Of a DNA stretch of 35,033 nucleotides, positions 3,020 to 25,249 are shown in pieces (position 1 is the first letter of the stretch; every line of letters starts with the position of its first letter). The stretch is from Candidatus Saccharimonadota bacterium (GTDB lineage: Bacteria; Patescibacteriota; Saccharimonadia; Saccharimonadales; Saccharimonadaceae). Below the pieces are notes generated by a model, which did no database searches, was not told the DNA's origin, and was given only the letters and a program-made list of their open reading frames with translations. Made by a program: the position numbers and the translations under genes. The stretch covers positions 1-35,033 of the forward strand of contig JAUMXO010000009.1 in NCBI GenBank assembly GCA_030529135.1, written 5' to 3'.

Positions 3020-3080
3020 TAATTTTTGAGTGATTTTTTTGTATTTTTTTGCAAAAAACTTAACCTTTTTAAATAGATTA

Positions 3081-3089
3081 TGCTAAAAT
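3081..3089 (+). promoter_or_regulatory. Extended -10 promoter of the first surface-protein gene, with an 8-codon leader ORF
   Basis: TGC TAAAAT, then ATAAGT, then ATG at 3096. The ATG at 3080 overlaps this promoter and cannot be the translation start. The ATG at 3096 opens a short frame (MRVWRKVP, stop TGA at 3120-3122) that contains the GGAGG ribosome-binding site (3106-3110). It ends overlapping the TTG start of the large gene. Confidence 0.7.
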
Positions 3090-3118
3090 ATAAGTATGCG
3101 AGTGTGGAGGAAGGTCCC

Positions 3119-6100
3119 TTGATAAGGGGACGAAGATTAATATCCTGTTTACTCATCGCATTTTCTAGCTTGATATTCACTTGTCAGGCGGTTTTTGCTG
3201 AAGAAATAGAGGTAGAGATTTCTCCAAGTACGGTTGAAATGAATTTATTCCCAAACAAATTCGCCACTACAGACCAATCGATATCCGTTTCTACTACTAG
3301 TCCTAATGGCTACATTGTGAACTTTTCTACTACTGGCACAACCACATCATTGGTGGAGCAAAGTAATCCGTCATTTACAATACCCACTTTCACTCTTTCT
3401 AGTGGCGCTGCCGTACTCCCAGCCAGTAGCACTGGTTATGGTTATGGTTATAGCACAGATAACGGTGCTTTTTATCATCCTGTTCCTTCGCCGTCTGGTG
3501 ATGGTGATACAATCTTCACTGCTACCACGCCTGGTTCATATACCCATGTCTTAACTTATGGGGTTTATCCAAGTCTTGATACTGTCGCCGGATCATATAG
3601 CAATGCTTTCGCAATCGCCGTAGTAGCCAACGTCACTGGGCCTTGCTCGGCTAATACTATCTGCTATCACGGCAATGGCGATGATGGCACTGGTAGTATG
3701 GAAGACCAGCAAGCTGCCTCTAACTCTTCTGCGACTCTTATACCTTCGAATTTTTCTCGCTCGGGCTATGGCTTTGTAGGTTGGAATACGGAGTCTGATG
3801 GTACTGGTACAACTTATGGGCCAAATGAGACTATTAACACTGGGGATCTTTCGGAGTTGGGAATGGACCTATATGCAAAGTGGATCCCAGCGGTAGGCAT
3901 CATACAAAACTGGACTGGTTGCGAAGCTATGAATGTTGGCGACGTAACTGCGTTAAGGGATATGCGTGATAACGAAGTTTATGCGGTGGCAAAACTTGGA
4001 GATGAAAATTGTTGGACGACAGAGAACCTACGTCTTAATCCTGCTACAGCTACAATTTCTAAGTCCAACACTAACTCGCCAACTGACGATTTCGTATTAA
4101 GAGCCCCAGCTTCTCATACTACGAACACAATGTGTAATGGCAATAATAGCGCATGTGTGGATGGCATAATCTTCAATGCTAATAATACCGACCGAAACCT
4201 TGTCGCGGACTATATCACCAATGGAAATGCGTTCTCTTGGTATGACTATGGGCTCGACTACAACTGGTATACTGCCACAGCTGGGAATGGGACTTATAGC
4301 ACTCAGGGGAATAGCGTGCAAGGAGATATTTGCCCGGCTGGTTGGCATCTCCCAACTGGAAATAAAAATGGAGATTTCTGGAATTTGAATAGAGCAATCA
4401 ATAATAGCAACACCTCAAGTGATGCTAAGTTTCGCAAATATCCGAATAACTTCCTCTGGTCTGGAGACTACAATACCAATGCTACTAGTGGTAGAGGATT
4501 TCAGGGGCGATATTGGTCAGCCACGCCATATTCAGAAACAGATGCCTATCGGCTTGGTAACTCTTCCACCACACTTACTATAGATAAGCATTACAATAAA
4601 TGGGCAGGTTTCTCGGTCAGATGTATCGCGAAAACGGACAACACTTCACTAATAGGCGATGTCCATTACGATGCAAATGGTGGCTCTGGCACTATGTCTG
4701 ATGATGAAAGTGTCAACTTCTTTATAACGCAAGCTAAGGCGAATGGATTTACTCCACCTGAAAATCACATATTTATCGAGTGGAATACCAGCGCAGATGG
4801 AAGCGGGACCTCGGTTCTAGCAGGAGACTTGGTGGGTGATGCGGCTAGTGCATTAGGGCTACTCCCTGGTGATACGTTAACGCTCTATGCTATCTGGGGC
4901 GAAGAGGCTACTTTGTCGTATGACGTTAACGGCGGGATGGGCAACATAAGTCCAGCAACCAACAGAAGCGGTAATGGCACCTTTAGCTTTATTGTGTCGG
5001 CGGCGGTTCCAGCTAGGTTGGATTATACTTTTGTGGGTTGGAGTACCAGCCCAACTAGCCAAACAGCAGATTATCATGCTGGAGATACATTTACCACCAC
5101 CAATACCACAAACACCCTGTACGCCGTATGGGTTATTGATACTTGTTCTGCTAATAACGTGTGTTATAGGGCTAACGGAGCAGAACTAGGGACTTCGCTA
5201 ACTCTTCCTGTAGGCTCTGGTGGCGCAGTAAATCTTAGAGGTAGCGACTACGAGCGAGCTGGCTATGGGTTTACGGGGTGGAATACTGAGCCAGACGGTA
5301 GTGGTACGCAATACGGACCACAACAAAATATAACGATTACGGATGATTTATCTACTGAAGGAAAGTCACTTTATGCGAATTGGGTGGCCTCAAGTGGTGA
5401 TATGCAAACTTGGTCGTCCTGCGGTACGCTTCCTACTGGCAATGTCGTTGCACTCACAGATAATCGCGACAACAACACTTATGCTGTAGCTAAGCTCCAG
5501 GATGGTAATTGTTGGATGATAGAAAACTTACGCCTTGACCCTTCCAAAGTCACATTCACAGCGCTAAATACCAACTCTCCGACGTCAGATTTCATATTGG
5601 CGGCACCTGGTTCTAGTACATCTACTAACCTTTGTAACCAAGACACCCCTGACTGTGTCAACCAAGTCGCCTTTGATTCCAACAATATTAATCGTAAATT
5701 ATCTGCCAACCCAACCTCAAATGATAGCAGGAGCTCTTGGTATGGCTACGGGGTTTGGTACAACTGGTATACTGCCACAGCAGGGAATGGGGTAAGAGAG
5801 ACACTCACCGGTAGTGTTTCTGGTGACATCTGTCCAGCCGGTTGGCGACTGCCTACCGGTGGACCAAACAGTGAATTTGTGGCACTAAACAGCGCTATAA
5901 ACAATGGCCAAACGAGGTCAGATGCAAACTTCAAGATTTATCCAAATAACTTCGTGTACTCTGGCGACCACAATGCAAAGGATGATGGTGGGCGAGGAAC
6001 TTATAACCGTTATTGGAGCGCCAGTGCACTAGATATTGATAAATCATACCGGTTTGGTATGACAAGTAGCTCAGTGACACCAGCAAATACTTGGAATAAA

Positions 6101-6136
6101 TGGGACGCATTCGCCGTGCGGTGTATTAAGAAATGA
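3119..6136 (+). CDS. Large secreted surface protein with InlB-type repeats and two FISUMP domains
   Basis: 1005 aa from TTG at 3119, chosen because GGAGG lies 8 nt upstream and the product then starts with a clean signal peptide (MIRGRRL, hydrophobic core, cleavage near VFA-EE). Order of parts: a beta-rich N-terminal domain (about 27-180); an InlB/Listeria-Bacteroides-type repeat (GYGFVGWNTESDGTGTTYG..LYAKW); a first Fibrobacter-type FISUMP domain (about 3898-4635; VAKLGDENCWTTENLRL, DICPAGWHLPTG, YWSATPY, FSVRCIAK); three more repeats (about 4660-5390); and a second FISUMP domain (about 5395-6133; NCWMIENLRL, CPAGWRLPTG, FAVRCIKK). There is no LPXTG or C-terminal membrane anchor. The two FISUMP domains are an internal duplication. 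It is probably exported and cell-surface or matrix associated, and adhesion to a host cell is a guess. Same architecture as the 18125-22978 gene. Confidence 0.85.
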   Translation: MIRGRRLISCLLIAFSSLIFTCQAVFAEEIEVEISPSTVEMNLFPNKFATTDQSISVSTTSPNGYIVNFSTTGTTTSLVEQSNPSFTIPTFTLSSGAAVLPASSTGYGYGYSTDNGAFYHPVPSPSGDGDTIFTATTPGSYTHVLTYGVYPSLDTVAGSYSNAFAIAVVANVTGPCSANTICYHGNGDDGTGSMEDQQAASNSSATLIPSNFSRSGYGFVGWNTESDGTGTTYGPNETINTGDLSELGMDLYAKWIPAVGIIQNWTGCEAMNVGDVTALRDMRDNEVYAVAKLGDENCWTTENLRLNPATATISKSNTNSPTDDFVLRAPASHTTNTMCNGNNSACVDGIIFNANNTDRNLVADYITNGNAFSWYDYGLDYNWYTATAGNGTYSTQGNSVQGDICPAGWHLPTGNKNGDFWNLNRAINNSNTSSDAKFRKYPNNFLWSGDYNTNATSGRGFQGRYWSATPYSETDAYRLGNSSTTLTIDKHYNKWAGFSVRCIAKTDNTSLIGDVHYDANGGSGTMSDDESVNFFITQAKANGFTPPENHIFIEWNTSADGSGTSVLAGDLVGDAASALGLLPGDTLTLYAIWGEEATLSYDVNGGMGNISPATNRSGNGTFSFIVSAAVPARLDYTFVGWSTSPTSQTADYHAGDTFTTTNTTNTLYAVWVIDTCSANNVCYRANGAELGTSLTLPVGSGGAVNLRGSDYERAGYGFTGWNTEPDGSGTQYGPQQNITITDDLSTEGKSLYANWVASSGDMQTWSSCGTLPTGNVVALTDNRDNNTYAVAKLQDGNCWMIENLRLDPSKVTFTALNTNSPTSDFILAAPGSSTSTNLCNQDTPDCVNQVAFDSNNINRKLSANPTSNDSRSSWYGYGVWYNWYTATAGNGVRETLTGSVSGDICPAGWRLPTGGPNSEFVALNSAINNGQTRSDANFKIYPNNFVYSGDHNAKDDGGRGTYNRYWSASALDIDKSYRFGMTSSSVTPANTWNKWDAFAVRCIKK

Positions 6137-18086: not shown

Positions 18087-18124
18087 TATAAGCATAATGA
18101 GGTGTGTAAGAGGAGTTGTTGGTT

Positions 18125-21100
18125 ATGTTGGGCTACGTTTTTATTAAACGTAGAAGCTTTCGTCTCCCAGGCAAAACTCTAAGACGTCTAGGACGTGTTT
18201 CTAGTTTTGCCTTGTTTTTGTTTATAGCTTTTGCTATTTTTCCAATTGCCCCTAATAATGACGATGAGGCTAGCGCAGCAGCTAATGCTTCTTCTACTAC
18301 TCTTTCTATGACTACTGGTTTTAGTAGTGCTAGTCTAGATATTGTGCCTACATCTTTAGATGGTACCTTTGCTACCTCTCCTAGTGATAAGCTAGCTAAG
18401 TTTAGTGTTTCAACCAATAACAGCACCGGCTATACGTTGACTCTAGCAGGAGATGACGATACGAGACAGCTAGTTAGTGGCTCTGGCGCTAGTGCCGTAG
18501 CACTGGATTCTATCACTACCTCAACTGGTATTACTTCGAGTGATTTTACGTCTTCAGATGATTATCTGAACAAATGGGGGTATTTACCAAGCAAATACAA
18601 TTCCGTTGCTAATACTACTAAATACTATCGGGCTCCTACTACTACCAGTATTGCTACTCTAGACGCTACTAATGTACCTAACGCTTCTGGAACTTCCAAT
18701 AATTATTCTATTGGTCTCGGAGCTAGGATAGACTATACACAAACAGCAGGTAATTATACCAACACTTTTGTTCTAGCTGCAGTAGGCAATCCAATCACTT
18801 ATACTATTAATTATACTGATGCTACGGGTGATAGCAGTGTGTCTGGCATTCCTAGCCAACAATCCAGTAGTACTACTTCTACTAGCGTTACTCTTTCAAG
18901 TGCAGTTCCTATTAGAACTGGCTACACCTTTGCTGGTTGGTGTTATGGTACTGTAAACACTACTGGTACCCATCCAGGCACTACATGTTCTGGCACTCCA
19001 GGTACTACTCATGCCGCCAGTAGCTCACTTGCTTTCATAGACCAGACTGCTACTGGCAGTAGTGCTAATACTATTACTTTGCAGGCTTTATGGACGGTAA
19101 AAACTTATACCATTGCCCTAAATGCTAATGGTGGCAGTGGTGGCTCGTCTTCTACTACCGTAGGCTACAAAGATACTACACTAGGCACTATTACTAATCC
19201 TACTAGAGCTAACTATAGTGAATACAGAACCATTTCTGGCTTCACGGCTGGCACCAATGCCTCGGGTGCCACCATTACCTACCAATCTTCTGGTAATTGT
19301 ACCTCAAGTTCTAATTGTAAGTCTTCTAGAACTACTACTTACGCTTTTGATGGCTGGTATAAAGAATCTGGTACTACTAATAAGATAACAGATATTGCAA
19401 CTACACCAGCCCTTCAACCTAACACTACCTACACTAACGCTTCTTCGCAGTGGACTTACGATGCTGGCACAAGTGTGACTCTTTATGCTGGTTGGTATTC
19501 TACTATTGGTAACTATGGCTCTGTTACTCTTCCTACTATCACCAAAACTGGTTATACTTGTGGATGGGGTACTAGTTCTACTGCTACTAGTGTTACCTAT
19601 ACTTCTGGGCAATCACTTACCCCTCCATCCAATCTTACGCTTTATGGAATATGTACGGGTAATCCTTATAATATTACTTATCTTGGTGGGGAGATTTTTA
19701 CTGGTTTTGATAATACAACTCAAACATTAGCTCAAGGTAGTTCAGTTCCAGTAGTCACTTCAAATGTTCTCAATTTATCTGCAAATACGAATTACACTGT
19801 ATCGTTTGACTATGTTGGAACCCAGGCGTCTAATTATTTCGATGTAGATTTCATCCCAGATACTTTGCCGGAAACCCATCCTATCGCTACTCCAACTTCT
19901 CAACATATGGATTGGACTACATCGTCGGCTAGCAGCGACATGGGTTCCGCTAGGCTTCGTTTCTTTGATGATATCGCGGATGCCACTTACTATGGTGGAA
20001 TAACTATTTCTAATATTCTATTGTCTCGACCCAACGTTCAGTCTAAAACCTATGGTAATACTCTCGGCACCTTGCCATCAGTATCAAAGACCGGATATAC
20101 TTTCAATGGTTTCTACACAGCTCCTAGCGGTGGCACGCTGATTTCTAGTTCCACTGCGGTACCAGCAGCGGATACTACTTACTATGGGCATTGGACACCT
20201 AACACTTATACTATTAACCTCACAAATACTAACGCTACTACTTCTGGTTCTACATCCGCTACAGCTACCTACAATAGCAGTAGTCTTTCTAGTATCACTA
20301 ATCCTCAAAGAAGTTATACTGTGTCTGGTTTTGGCAGAACTACTTCTGGGACTAATGCCACTATATCATCCACCTCTACTCTTACTTCTACCTATACTTT
20401 TAATGGTTGGTACACTGCTACTTCAGGTGGCAGTAGAGTAATTACTTCTGGAAAAGCTTTAGCAGCTAACGTTACTGATTATACCGATTCTAGTAGTCGT
20501 TGGACTCGCACCTCTGGCGCAACGCTTTATGCTCAATGGGCTACTGGCAATGCCGTCACTCTACCTACCATTACTAGAACAGGTAGTACATGTGGCTGGA
20601 GTACGTCAAGTACCGCTACTTCTTGGACATATACTTCTGGACAATCCATTACTCCTACTTCCAATCTAACTCTCTATGGTGTATGTAGAAACAATATTAC
20701 TTTAAATCTTAATGGTGGTACGGGTGGTTCCACCTCCGCTACCGTCAAATATGGCGATACCTCACTTTCCTCCATCACTGTTCCTACTAGAGCTAGTAGT
20801 GTTGGTACCTATACTATATCCGGGTTTACTGTAGGTACTACCAACGCACCTAGTTCCACTAATGCCTCAATCACTTGGCCTTCTAGCGGTTGTACCAGTG
20901 CTTCCAACTGCAAATCTACTAATACTACTTCCTACACCTTCAACGGTTGGCATCAAAGCTCTGGCACCGGTACATTAATAGCTAGCAGTGCCGCTACCCC
21001 AGCTCTTCAAGCCAGCACTACCTACACTAATGCTTCCTCACAATGGACGTATACTACGGCTTCTTCTGTTACTCTATATGCTGGCTGGAATACCAATTCT

Positions 21101-22978
21101 GGAAGCTATAGTAGTGTCACCCTTCCTACCATTACTAGAACTGGCAGCACTTGCGGTTGGGCGACAACTAGTGGTGCCACTACCTGGAATTATGATTCTG
21201 GAGCCACTATCACCCCTACTTCCAACCTAACTCTCTATGGTGTATGTAGAAACAATATTACTCTAAGCAATACTGGTGCTACCACTTCTGGCTCTACTTC
21301 CGCTACCGTCAAATATGGCGATACTAGTCTTCATAGTATCACTGTGCCGCAAAGAAAATATACTGTATCCGGCTTCAGTAGGACTACCTCAGGTGCTAAC
21401 TCCACAATTTCTAGCACAGCTACACTTACCAACACTGCTACCTTCAACGGTTGGTACACTGCCAGCTCTGGTGGGACTAAGATAGCTGATGCCGCTGCCA
21501 CTCCAGCTCTTCAGGCTAGCACTACCTATACCAACAGTAGTAAACAATGGACCTACACTACTAGTGGAGCCGTTACTCTTTACTCCCAATTCACAGACAA
21601 TAGTGTCACTCTCCCTACCATTACTAGAACCGGTAGCACTTGTGGTTGGAGTACCAGCAGTACCGCTACCTCATGGACTTACACTTCTGGCCAGACTATC
21701 ACTCCTACTTCCAATCTAACTCTCTATGGTGTATGTAGAAACAATATTACTTTAAATCTTAATGGTGGTACGGGTGGTTCCACCTCCGCTACCGTCAAAT
21801 ATGGCGATACCTCACTTTCCTCCATCACTAGACCTACTAGAACTAGTACCTCAAGTACCAGAACCATTAGTGGCTTAGCCGCCAATGGCGCCAATGCTTC
21901 TGGCGCTACAGTTACCTTCCAAAGTAGTGGCAATTGCACCAGTGCTTCCAACTGTAAATCTACTAGTACCACTTCCTACACCTTCAATGGTTGGTATGAG
22001 GAGTCTAGTGGTACTAATAGAATAGCTGATGCCAGTGCCACCCCAGCTCTTCAGGCTAGCACTACCTATACCAACAGTAGTAAACAATGGACCTATACTT
22101 ATGCCTCTGCTATCACTCTCTATGCCGACTGGAATACCAGCAGTACCGGCTATGGCTCCATTACTCTGCCTACTATCACTAAAGCTAACAGTACTTGTGG
22201 CTGGGATACTAATAGCGCCGCTACCAGCCCCACCTATTCTTCTGGCCAGACTATCACCCCTAGCGGCAACATGACATTATATGGAGTATGCACTTACTCT
22301 GGTTATTACATTCAAGACTTCACAGTTTCTTTGTGTAGCAGTCTCGCTAGTAGTGGAAATTATACCGTGAGAGATAGACGAGATGATCAAGATTATACTG
22401 TACGATATATTAATGGTAGGTGTTTTATGACTAGAAATCTTGCAATTGGATGTAATGGCACTGGTTCTACTTATGGTAGTGCCGCATCGTCCAAAACTCT
22501 AACCAGTACATATTCTCATGTCTCTACTAGCTGGTCTACTCCTACTGCTTCACTTACTACCGCCACTAATGACAGTACTGCGAGATCAACAGATTACATG
22601 ACGTGTTCGTCTACTTATGGAGCTTGGTATAATTACAGAGCTGCTACAGCTGGAACTATTACTGGCAACAGTAATACAACTACTCCGACATATGATATTT
22701 GTCCTAAGGGCTGGCAACTACCAAATGGGCCAGGGTCCTCTAGTACGCCAGCCTACAAAGAGATTCTTAGTTATACTAGCTCGTTTGGAGCGGTAAAAGG
22801 TGGTTATTACCAACTCGGATCTCTAACCAGCACAACACAAGGGTATTGGTGGTCTAGAACTGTACCTGGTAGTGGTGCAACTCGTAGTGTGTTGTTGTAT
22901 GATGGTAGCGCTCTAAAGAGTGGCACCTCCCTAACTCGTTCTTATGGAGCATATGTTCGTTGTGTAAAAACTCCGTAG
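18125..22978 (+). CDS. Giant Ser/Thr-rich surface protein with InlB-type repeats and FISUMP-like C-terminus
   Basis: 1617 aa from ATG at 18125 (AGGAG at 18111-18115, 9 nt upstream; in-frame TTGs at 18116 and 18119 are too close to it). Basic n-region (KRRSFRLPGKTLRRLGR), hydrophobic core, cleavage near EASA. A beta-type N-terminal domain of about 180 residues, related in layout to that of the 3119-6136 protein, is followed by about 12 alternating repeat units. The long type is YTFNGWYTASSGG..VTLYAGW and the short type STCGWSTSS..LTLYGVC, the latter with two Cys each. A single-copy module (about 19680-20050) interrupts the repeats. The C-terminal about 220 residues are FISUMP-like (RCFMTRNLAIGC, DICPKGWQLPNG, YWWSRT, YVRCVKTP). 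No sortase motif. Probably exported and surface-displayed; a role in contact with other cells is a guess. Confidence 0.88.
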   Translation: MLGYVFIKRRSFRLPGKTLRRLGRVSSFALFLFIAFAIFPIAPNNDDEASAAANASSTTLSMTTGFSSASLDIVPTSLDGTFATSPSDKLAKFSVSTNNSTGYTLTLAGDDDTRQLVSGSGASAVALDSITTSTGITSSDFTSSDDYLNKWGYLPSKYNSVANTTKYYRAPTTTSIATLDATNVPNASGTSNNYSIGLGARIDYTQTAGNYTNTFVLAAVGNPITYTINYTDATGDSSVSGIPSQQSSSTTSTSVTLSSAVPIRTGYTFAGWCYGTVNTTGTHPGTTCSGTPGTTHAASSSLAFIDQTATGSSANTITLQALWTVKTYTIALNANGGSGGSSSTTVGYKDTTLGTITNPTRANYSEYRTISGFTAGTNASGATITYQSSGNCTSSSNCKSSRTTTYAFDGWYKESGTTNKITDIATTPALQPNTTYTNASSQWTYDAGTSVTLYAGWYSTIGNYGSVTLPTITKTGYTCGWGTSSTATSVTYTSGQSLTPPSNLTLYGICTGNPYNITYLGGEIFTGFDNTTQTLAQGSSVPVVTSNVLNLSANTNYTVSFDYVGTQASNYFDVDFIPDTLPETHPIATPTSQHMDWTTSSASSDMGSARLRFFDDIADATYYGGITISNILLSRPNVQSKTYGNTLGTLPSVSKTGYTFNGFYTAPSGGTLISSSTAVPAADTTYYGHWTPNTYTINLTNTNATTSGSTSATATYNSSSLSSITNPQRSYTVSGFGRTTSGTNATISSTSTLTSTYTFNGWYTATSGGSRVITSGKALAANVTDYTDSSSRWTRTSGATLYAQWATGNAVTLPTITRTGSTCGWSTSSTATSWTYTSGQSITPTSNLTLYGVCRNNITLNLNGGTGGSTSATVKYGDTSLSSITVPTRASSVGTYTISGFTVGTTNAPSSTNASITWPSSGCTSASNCKSTNTTSYTFNGWHQSSGTGTLIASSAATPALQASTTYTNASSQWTYTTASSVTLYAGWNTNSGSYSSVTLPTITRTGSTCGWATTSGATTWNYDSGATITPTSNLTLYGVCRNNITLSNTGATTSGSTSATVKYGDTSLHSITVPQRKYTVSGFSRTTSGANSTISSTATLTNTATFNGWYTASSGGTKIADAAATPALQASTTYTNSSKQWTYTTSGAVTLYSQFTDNSVTLPTITRTGSTCGWSTSSTATSWTYTSGQTITPTSNLTLYGVCRNNITLNLNGGTGGSTSATVKYGDTSLSSITRPTRTSTSSTRTISGLAANGANASGATVTFQSSGNCTSASNCKSTSTTSYTFNGWYEESSGTNRIADASATPALQASTTYTNSSKQWTYTYASAITLYADWNTSSTGYGSITLPTITKANSTCGWDTNSAATSPTYSSGQTITPSGNMTLYGVCTYSGYYIQDFTVSLCSSLASSGNYTVRDRRDDQDYTVRYINGRCFMTRNLAIGCNGTGSTYGSAASSKTLTSTYSHVSTSWSTPTASLTTATNDSTARSTDYMTCSSTYGAWYNYRAATAGTITGNSNTTTPTYDICPKGWQLPNGPGSSSTPAYKEILSYTSSFGAVKGGYYQLGSLTSTTQGYWWSRTVPGSGATRSVLLYDGSALKSGTSLTRSYGAYVRCVKTP
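19680..20050 (+). other. Single-copy beta-sandwich-like module inside the repeat array
   Basis: Within the giant protein, residues from about NITYLGGEIFTGF to ISNILLSRPNV match no repeat unit. The pattern LSANTNYTVSFDYVG, ARLRFFDD and GGITISNILL resembles galactose-binding or carbohydrate-binding (CBM4/9-like) sandwiches. The base composition is less repetitive than the flanks. Assignment is tentative. Confidence 0.4.
20651..20779 (+). repeat. 129-bp exact direct repeat, copy 1
   Basis: Identical at DNA level to 21701-21829 (offset 1050 bp, 350 codons). A third, diverged copy lies at about 21213-21342. Confidence 0.9.
21503..21555 (+). repeat. 53-bp exact direct repeat, copy 1 (copy 2 at 22043-22095)
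   Basis: Encodes PALQASTTYTNSSKQWTY in both places. Offset 540 bp, 180 codons. Confidence 0.85.
21701..21829 (+). repeat. 129-bp exact direct repeat, copy 2
   Basis: Identical to 20651-20779, with no synonymous change, which points to recent duplication or gene conversion. Confidence 0.9.
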
Positions 22979-23980: not shown

Positions 23981-25249
23981 CTATAATGATAACACAATTA
24001 GATTTTCTATGTGTGGAGTATGAGGGAAGAAATTAAAGGTTTTAATATTTTCTATGTGATATTTTTCTGACAAAATTTTAACGTCACGGGCTTGGGTGGC
24101 GGGATTGCAAGAGAGGTAGATGATTTTTGGCGGCATTATCTCTAATAATTTTTCTGTTAGTTTTATGTTTAAACCGGCGCGTGGTGGGTCGAGGATGACG
24201 GTTTGGTGATTGTTGATATAACTTAACGATTCTTCTGACTTGGCAAAAATTGCGACAGGATTTTTTCCTCGGAGCGCGTCGCCGCCGCCCGTTTGCCTTC
24301 GGCAATTCGCGTCCCAAGGGGCGAGCGTCACGGGGGCGGCGCGCTCATCCTCGTCGTAACTCCGGAGCTCCTCGGAAAAACCCTTTTCGCAATTTTTGGC
24401 AAGTTCGCTGAAGGCGAAATAGTCACATTCTACTAGGGTCAACTTTTTATCTCGGGCGACGGAAAGACCGATGGTGCCAACACCGGCATATAAATCTAAG
24501 ACTTCATCAGTGGCAATATTTTTTTTAATTTCCTTTAAAGCTAATTCGTAAACCGGAAGATTAATCTGAAAAAAACCGTTTGGTGAATAAGAATATTCGT
24601 GTCCTAAAATAATATCTTTTAAATTCTTGAAGGTCGGGTGAGGTTTGTGATTTTCAAAAAGTCCGCCAGAGACCTCGCCTTTCTGATTACAACGAAGTAG
24701 GAGTGATTGGTATTTACGAGCTTCCTCGCCTCTAGAATTTAAATCAGCGATAATTTCTTTAGCTTTTTTAAAAATTTCTGGACGTTCTATAGACGAGTTT
24801 TCAATTGGAATTTTGCGATGAGAACCGCGCGCATGAAAGGCAGGATGTATTTTTTCATCCTCAAAATCATAATAGAGGGCGTATTCCATTTTATTGCGAT
24901 AAAAATAATCTTTATTATCGGTGACTATCTCTGGAGTTTTAATTTTTATACCATGCTCGTAAAAAAGCTCAACTACAAGAGATTGTTTTTGCTCGAGTTC
25001 ATACTGGTAATCTAAAATTTGCCATGGAGAAGTAGAAAGAAAGCAATCATCTTTAGGCTCTTGTCGGAATGGGGAAGGATTTTTATATTTAATGGCGATA
25101 GCTTCTTCATAAGAAGGTTTTGATTTGATAATTTGATATTCAGTAACAATTTCACCAGGTAGAGCATTCCAAAAAAACATTTTTTTGCCGGTAGGTGCAG
25201 TACCAAGCGCGAAGCCGCCAGGGATAAATTTGTCAATTTTGATGTCCAA
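23981..25249 (-). CDS. TrmA/RlmD-family RNA (uracil-5-)-methyltransferase with a palindromic insertion
   Basis: 422 aa. Methylates C5 of a uridine in 23S rRNA or tRNA using SAM. N-terminal TRAM-like domain (GFALGTAPTGKKMFFWNALPGE region), central domain, then SAM motif DLYAGVGTIGLSVAR, ILDPPRAGL and the catalytic YLSCNPATQARDV with its Cys nucleophile. The four-Cys iron-sulfur cluster of classical RlmD is not evident. Residues about 290-330 are a foreign, GC-rich in-frame block (SEELRSYDEDERAAPVT and on) corresponding to palindromic copy C, between the ELAKNCEKGF and NPVAIFAKS segments. Start is TTG at 25249, with AAAGGA 8 nt upstream and extended -10 TGG TATAAT at 25275-25283. Confidence 0.9.
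   Translation of the reverse strand: MDIKIDKFIPGGFALGTAPTGKKMFFWNALPGEIVTEYQIIKSKPSYEEAIAIKYKNPSPFRQEPKDDCFLSTSPWQILDYQYELEQKQSLVVELFYEHGIKIKTPEIVTDNKDYFYRNKMEYALYYDFEDEKIHPAFHARGSHRKIPIENSSIERPEIFKKAKEIIADLNSRGEEARKYQSLLLRCNQKGEVSGGLFENHKPHPTFKNLKDIILGHEYSYSPNGFFQINLPVYELALKEIKKNIATDEVLDLYAGVGTIGLSVARDKKLTLVECDYFAFSELAKNCEKGFSEELRSYDEDERAAPVTLAPWDANCRRQTGGGDALRGKNPVAIFAKSEESLSYINNHQTVILDPPRAGLNIKLTEKLLEIMPPKIIYLSCNPATQARDVKILSEKYHIENIKTFNFFPHTPHIENLIVLSL
24262..24380 (-). repeat. Palindromic coding element, copy C (in the RNA methyltransferase gene)
   Basis: 119 bp. The arms TTTTTCCTCGGAGC (24262-24275) and GCTCCTCGGAAAAA (24367-24380) are inverted with a 2-base mismatch. An inner pair (GCCGCCGCCCGT with ACGGGGGCGGC) and hairpin TTGCC/GGCAA lie inside. 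The segment 24327-24375 aligns with 1908-1958 of valS with small indels: CGTCACGGG, CTCATCCTCG, GTCGTAAC, TCCGGA. The encoded YDEDERAAPVT parallels TTEDEGASPVT in the same frame. Confidence 0.8.

Follow-up and report, generated by a model that had tools for sequence, protein, structure and literature searches.

A gene for an RNA methyltransferase in a Saccharibacteria genome contains a palindromic block that is read in frame, and this locus raises the questions of whether the block is part of the enzyme or an insertion, how the gene tolerates it, and how its long inverted repeat came about. The window, that is, the whole 35,033-nt stretch of DNA that was analysed, is contig 3 (C3) of the source genome (G000; 787 kb, 23 contigs). 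The host gene (23981-25249, minus strand) encodes a TrmA/RlmD-type RNA (uracil-5-) methyltransferase of 422 aa, which matched PF05958 with 64.7 bits (cut-off 23). The best NCBIfam model for the protein was rumA/RlmD, scoring 153 bits and thus under its cut-off of 183.6, and its PDB relatives were SP_1029, RumA, and TrmA.

The block, referred to as copy C, was found to be a 167-nt palindrome on the minus strand at 24238-24404. The original prediction had placed it at 24262-24380; the block was real, but its outer parts had been missed. The full inverted repeat pairs 24238-24275 with 24367-24404 (38 nt, 82% complementary) and is the strongest local inverted repeat of the window, in which only three sites reached the threshold compared with 0, 1, and 0 in shuffles. 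In the coding sense, copy C reads ACTTGCCAAAAATTGCGAAAAGGGTTTTTCCGAGGAGC, TCCGGAGTTACGACGAGGATGAGCGCGCCGCC, CCCGTGACG-CTCGCCCCTTGGGACGCGAATTGCCGAAGGCAA-ACGGG, GCGGCGGCGACGC, and GCTCCGAGGAAAAAATCCTGTCGCAATTTTTGCCAAGT, with the last two pieces overlapping by one base as printed. On the minus strand, it comprises a host-specific 5' arm coding for ELAKNCEKGFSEE (24367-24404), a chassis module, TCCGGAGTTACGACGAGGATGAGCGCGCCGCC, that alignment showed to be shared with copy B (see below) and with copies in related genomes (24335-24366), a long core (24288-24334) whose last 31 nt are matched in related genomes with 0-3 mismatches, and a host-specific 3' arm coding for the end of the insert and VAIFAKS (24238-24275). 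With DNA parameters, the whole block is predicted to fold into a single hairpin at about -53 kcal/mol.

Three further copies with the copy C chassis were identified in the window, all of them in valS and on the minus strand. Copy B (1862-1977, with weaker pairing to 1837-2002) lies in the N-terminal linker; it has a short core at 1901-1914, to which copy C adds an inner module of about 33 nt (CTCGCCCCTTGGGACGCGAATTGCCGAAGGCAA) within its CCCGT...ACGGG core. The alignment of B and C scored 73.5, and the best of 500 shuffles of C reached 54.5, which confirmed the earlier claim of one element family in two non-homologous genes; as also claimed, B encodes TTEDEGASPVT and C encodes YDEDERAAPVT, both on the minus strand. 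Copy D (1259-1341), located before the IVVSTTRPET motif, was spotted via a similar valS insert in another species (L303). It carries the chassis ends CCGAGGAC...GTCCGAGG around a different centre with the peptide PSSEDHKLGRTASSVSEE, and it folds as a single hairpin; its peptide SEDHKLGRTASSVSEE recurs in L303 at another valS site. Copy A (1-75), in the 3' part of valS, is cut by the contig end, and its other half was found at the start of contig C19 of the same genome (C19:1-100). valS is thus divided between C3 and C19, and as the break falls inside the copy, the repeat probably broke the assembly. An Rfam search of the window returned tRNAs only and no match to the element.

The distribution of the family was examined with one genome per species, mostly drafts and metagenome assemblies. 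The 14-nt core CCCGTNACGACGGG was present in 53 of 60 genomes of the same Saccharibacteria genus, and a reversed control pattern gave 0 matches. Across 198 genomes sampled throughout the order, the core was detected in 14 of 15 members of the genus, three genomes of a sister genus in the same family had it in clear elements, and one further genus had a single unstructured core match; the core was absent from all 146 sampled genomes of other families. Exact core matches in public genomes all came from Candidatus Saccharibacteria metagenome assemblies, and where a source was named, it was mostly the gut of goat, sheep, or buffalo. The rarer long core, with its 33-nt inner module, was found in 11 of the 60 genus genomes, and a 23-mer of it occurred in Saccharibacteria only, among 84,980 species genomes. 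Either core form can occupy an orthologous site: site A of valS has the short core here and the long core in G007, and the der site has the short core here and the long core in L064. Other palindromic inserts, unlike in sequence and partly AT-rich, were observed in other species at the truB site (L297, L298, and L301) and at valS sites (L246, L308, L311, L319, and L320), and several unrelated families of coding palindromes appear to exist in the genus.

The copies reside mainly in genes. Among 153 distinct copies with enough flanking sequence, 127 (83%) were intragenic, which was defined as lying in an ORF of at least 120 aa whose coding sequence continues to either side of the copy. In the genome of the window itself, pattern searches, which give a lower bound, located copies in der, typA (TypA/BipA), leuS (2), tsaD, polA, gyrA (close to the N-terminus of GyrA), queA, lepA, ileS, argS, truB, and valS (3). 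Genes outside the window were named from recognisable sequence, except that der, truB, valS, and trmA were traced via orthologues. The family appears to be one of small mobile hairpins that have entered essential genes in frame, time and again, in a single lineage of tiny parasitic gut bacteria. LeuRS has two inserts of this kind (L120; G000 C15:6805), one of which (RAASGRPIATGGRRSSSRCRAPESL) is almost identical to an insert in QueA (L126).

The shared orientation and frame of B and C had been taken originally as a sign of mobile-like spread with selection for a translatable frame. The spread was borne out, but the selection was not, as copies serve as sense on both strands and in five of the six frames. 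Relative to the core, frames +0, +1, and +2 were used by 34, 51, and 1 copies, and those of the other strand by 19, 15, and 7; the +2 frame is closed by TAA or TGA in the core. The mean number of open frames per element was 3.78, the same as in dinucleotide shuffles (3.71), and special selection for open frames was therefore rejected. The GC-richness of the element (66%, compared with 40% for the window) and the purging of gene-killing insertions are enough to explain the placement, and coding selection on the element is unneeded.

Orthologous genes distinguished an insertion from a native part of the enzyme. Among same-genus orthologues of the methyltransferase, nine with a full site carried an insert (this one included), 13 had none, and one (L017) had a remnant; the insert was also missing in both outgroup genomes of the alignment. 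Insert-free orthologues read, for example, NCKITNATAIL or NCQASNAYAVL, where the present protein reads NCEKGFSEELRS...LRGKNPVAIF, and the inserts of the carriers differed in frame and in sequence. In the AlphaFold2 model, pLDDT was below 50 exactly at residues 290-327, which correspond to the insert, and mostly 80-97 in the rest of the protein; the insert is positioned between a helix (277-288) and a strand (332-335). In the TrmA-type protein, the one host modelled, the insert is thus predicted to be a disordered surface loop, in line with the structural check proposed earlier. It is practically excluded that the block belongs to the conserved methyltransferase fold, the outcome that the original prediction had named as its refutation, or that it is a product of chance or assembly: it is in frame and the genomes are metagenome assemblies, but most orthologues lack it, the model shows it as disordered, and the same family recurs in more than 50 genomes that were assembled independently, whereas the control pattern gave no match.

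On a tree of the remaining TrmA protein, the nine carriers required seven presence changes, equal to the value for shuffled labels. Carriers are scattered over the tree, which argues for repeated gain, loss, or replacement at a single permissive site. ValRS, Der, and TruB showed a similar pattern of occupied and empty sites. Short hairpins of 8-11 bp were observed at a few otherwise empty TrmA sites (L020 and L023). The hairpins of L020 and L017 resemble deletion remnants, which suggests loss by internal deletion.

The outer arms distinguish each copy from the others. With a loose aligner, they had a median length of 41 nt and an identity of 82%, and in 94% of the copies they were better than in any of 153 shuffles. 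Only 2 of 11,628 copy pairs were at least 75% alike in the outer 16 nt of their arms; the difference between the arms of B and C noticed in the original prediction is thus general, and its suggestion that core and arms evolve separately is supported. One could suppose that the element targets pre-existing hairpin loops and that the arms are native inverted repeats of the host. The 8-11 bp hairpins at empty TrmA sites and the resemblance of short and long cores to a hairpin nested in a hairpin loop fit this idea, which is nevertheless very improbable, since 46 empty sites in four genes showed no extra palindromicity (on average at percentile 0.42 within the surrounding gene region) and L020 and L017 resemble remnants of elements. 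As the empty sites are not palindromic, the arms arise with or after insertion.

The arms also change in concert. In 14 orthologous pairs picked by eye as alignable, we counted 58 two-sided changes that kept Watson-Crick pairing in the big hairpin, compared with 8-16 when the partner was slid by 1-3 bases, and these changes were mildly clustered in adjacent pairs (10 versus 5.4, p 0.03). Such paired changes, together with very stable predicted folds, could reflect a hairpin kept by selection on mRNA structure (stability, pausing, processing, or excision from the transcript). Selection on a transcript is, however, quite improbable. In the coding sense, G.U and A.C mismatches were equally frequent (198 and 197 in loosely defined arms; 38 and 45 in strictly defined arms), and single-sided changes favoured A.C over G.T (36 versus 15). 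Moreover, either strand can be sense, and at one site the inserts vary among species or are missing. As the arms show no preference for G-U, the transcript is not the selected molecule, and a process at the DNA level is indicated.

The net length added at occupied sites bears on how this process works. In Der and TruB, the net insertion equalled the element without its arms (extra length about zero), which implies in-place rewriting of the flanking host sequence. ValRS and TrmA had gained about one arm more than the element (medians of 1.22 and 0.90 arms). We consider, with a probability of roughly 0.72, that copy C is a non-autonomous mobile palindrome with a swappable centre that is tolerated in loops and whose arms are built and kept by strand switching. 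Such an element would measure about 60-110 nt without its arms, belong to a Saccharibacteria lineage, and bear on its chassis a short core, a long core with the 33-nt module, or another centre. Genes would tolerate it because it is GC-rich, has few stops, and settles in loops that can take an in-frame insert with little damage, and it would presumably be translated as a disordered loop. Once the hairpin is in a gene, flanking host DNA would turn into a lasting inverted repeat, as strand switching during replication would copy one flank over the other, and each copy would thereby gain and keep long locus-specific arms running into the host gene. Insertions would be gained and lost many times at the same permissive sites. 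Template switching is most likely the arm-making process, and the copies presumably transpose via some enzyme.

Two observations speak against the template-switching account. The excess of one arm in ValRS and TrmA is one of them, as a flank might already be copied in inverted form during insertion. The other is a mismatch motif at the border of chassis and arm, YGAGR opposite YCGAR; 87 of 153 copies had both, compared with 6 expected, and this mismatch persists, although pure homogenisation of the arms is expected to erase it. The motif could be a recognition feature or could form tandem G.A pairs.

Alternatively, the arms may be made by the insertion reaction, through fold-back synthesis or a recombinase that copies the target flank inverted, which would yield an inverted rather than a direct target duplication. 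The excess of about one arm in ValRS and TrmA agrees with this mechanism, as does the lack of arms at empty sites, and in G006 (L014) and G001 (L291) the extra arm resembles the reverse complement of the conserved neighbour. We regard it as an unlikely candidate, because extra length was about zero in Der and TruB, native linkers vary by a few residues, and two-sided changes continuing after insertion require an ongoing process in any case. The corresponding conclusion, that the insertion reaction itself builds a host-specific palindrome by inverted flank copying, a mode of transposition without RAYT, IS110, or direct target duplication, is doubtful; if true, such transposition serves to thread replaceable loops into the essential proteins of a lineage in a candidate phylum. 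By eye, no direct repeats indicative of target-site duplication were seen at the sites compared (one genome per species). RAYT/Y1 transposases (PF01797) and IS110 (PF01548) were each found in 2 of 60 genomes and were absent from the source genome, and both were rejected as movers because they are missing from nearly all genomes. No mobilising enzyme could be linked to the family, which counts against the mobile reading.

Under the preferred reading of a mobile palindrome with arms kept by strand switching, the closest known kind, by analogy, is that of the protein-coding palindromic elements of Rickettsia and Wolbachia. Rickettsia palindromic elements (RPEs; 105-146 bp), studied by Ogata, Claverie, and colleagues, and the Wolbachia repeats are, in the passages available, described as short many-copy hairpins in several families, placed in frame in housekeeping genes of reduced-genome, host-dependent bacteria, tolerated there as inserts at the protein surface, and without an enzyme of their own (PMC2229807, PMC10969869). 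Likewise, we found dispersed palindromes of about 60-150 nt in unrelated genes, in-frame insertion into open ORFs, and empty orthologues elsewhere. The likeness is one of kind, and the phyla are unrelated. RPEs are reported, in the same passages, with one conserved peptide frame, whereas five of six frames are used here. Further differences are the swappable centre and the locus-specific coevolving arms running into the host gene, which are absent from the RPE review passages.

Inverted repeats within protein genes, with both arms coding, are also known from mitochondria of Nematomorpha, for which template switching and concerted arm evolution were considered (PMC6649704); those palindromes are native to the genes of an animal mitochondrion, whereas the present ones lie in a bacterium, around members of an inserted repeat family. 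In quasipalindromes, template switching is proposed to rewrite one arm from the other and to cause multi-base coding changes (PMC8604942, PMC7202029), and yeast coding DNA provides a documented case of such arm homogenisation (PMC8604942). The process is known for native short inverted repeats, whereas in the present family it would create and maintain the outer arms of an element that is mobile. REP/REPIN sequences and MITEs are likewise small non-autonomous palindromes scattered over genomes. However, REP/REPINs are extragenic and tied to RAYT, which the source genome lacks and to which the 83% intragenic placement stands in contrast, and the fixed terminal inverted repeats of MITEs have no counterpart, as only the inner chassis is common and the outer arms differ at each locus.

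Literature searches turned up no report of such elements in Saccharibacteria, and papers that combine 'Saccharibacteria' and 'palindromic' appear, judging by their titles and abstracts, to concern CRISPR or other topics. Copy C can be classed as a protein-coding palindrome in a phylum for which no report was found, with coevolving locus-specific arms and exchangeable centres in addition. The best-known protein-coding palindromes are those of Rickettsia and Wolbachia, in which spread and tolerance are still unexplained, and an abundant, much more diverse set in an unrelated group of host-dependent bacteria with reduced genomes suggests that the phenomenon is a general one. Competing mechanisms can be tested on this set, which offers measurable coevolution of the arms and dozens of orthologous sites, both occupied and empty.

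Elsewhere in the window, the plus strand encodes two large proteins (3080-6136 and 18116-22978) that are predicted to be exported and contain repeated modules, possibly surface adhesins; the repeats in 19523-22292 share 65-89% identity.
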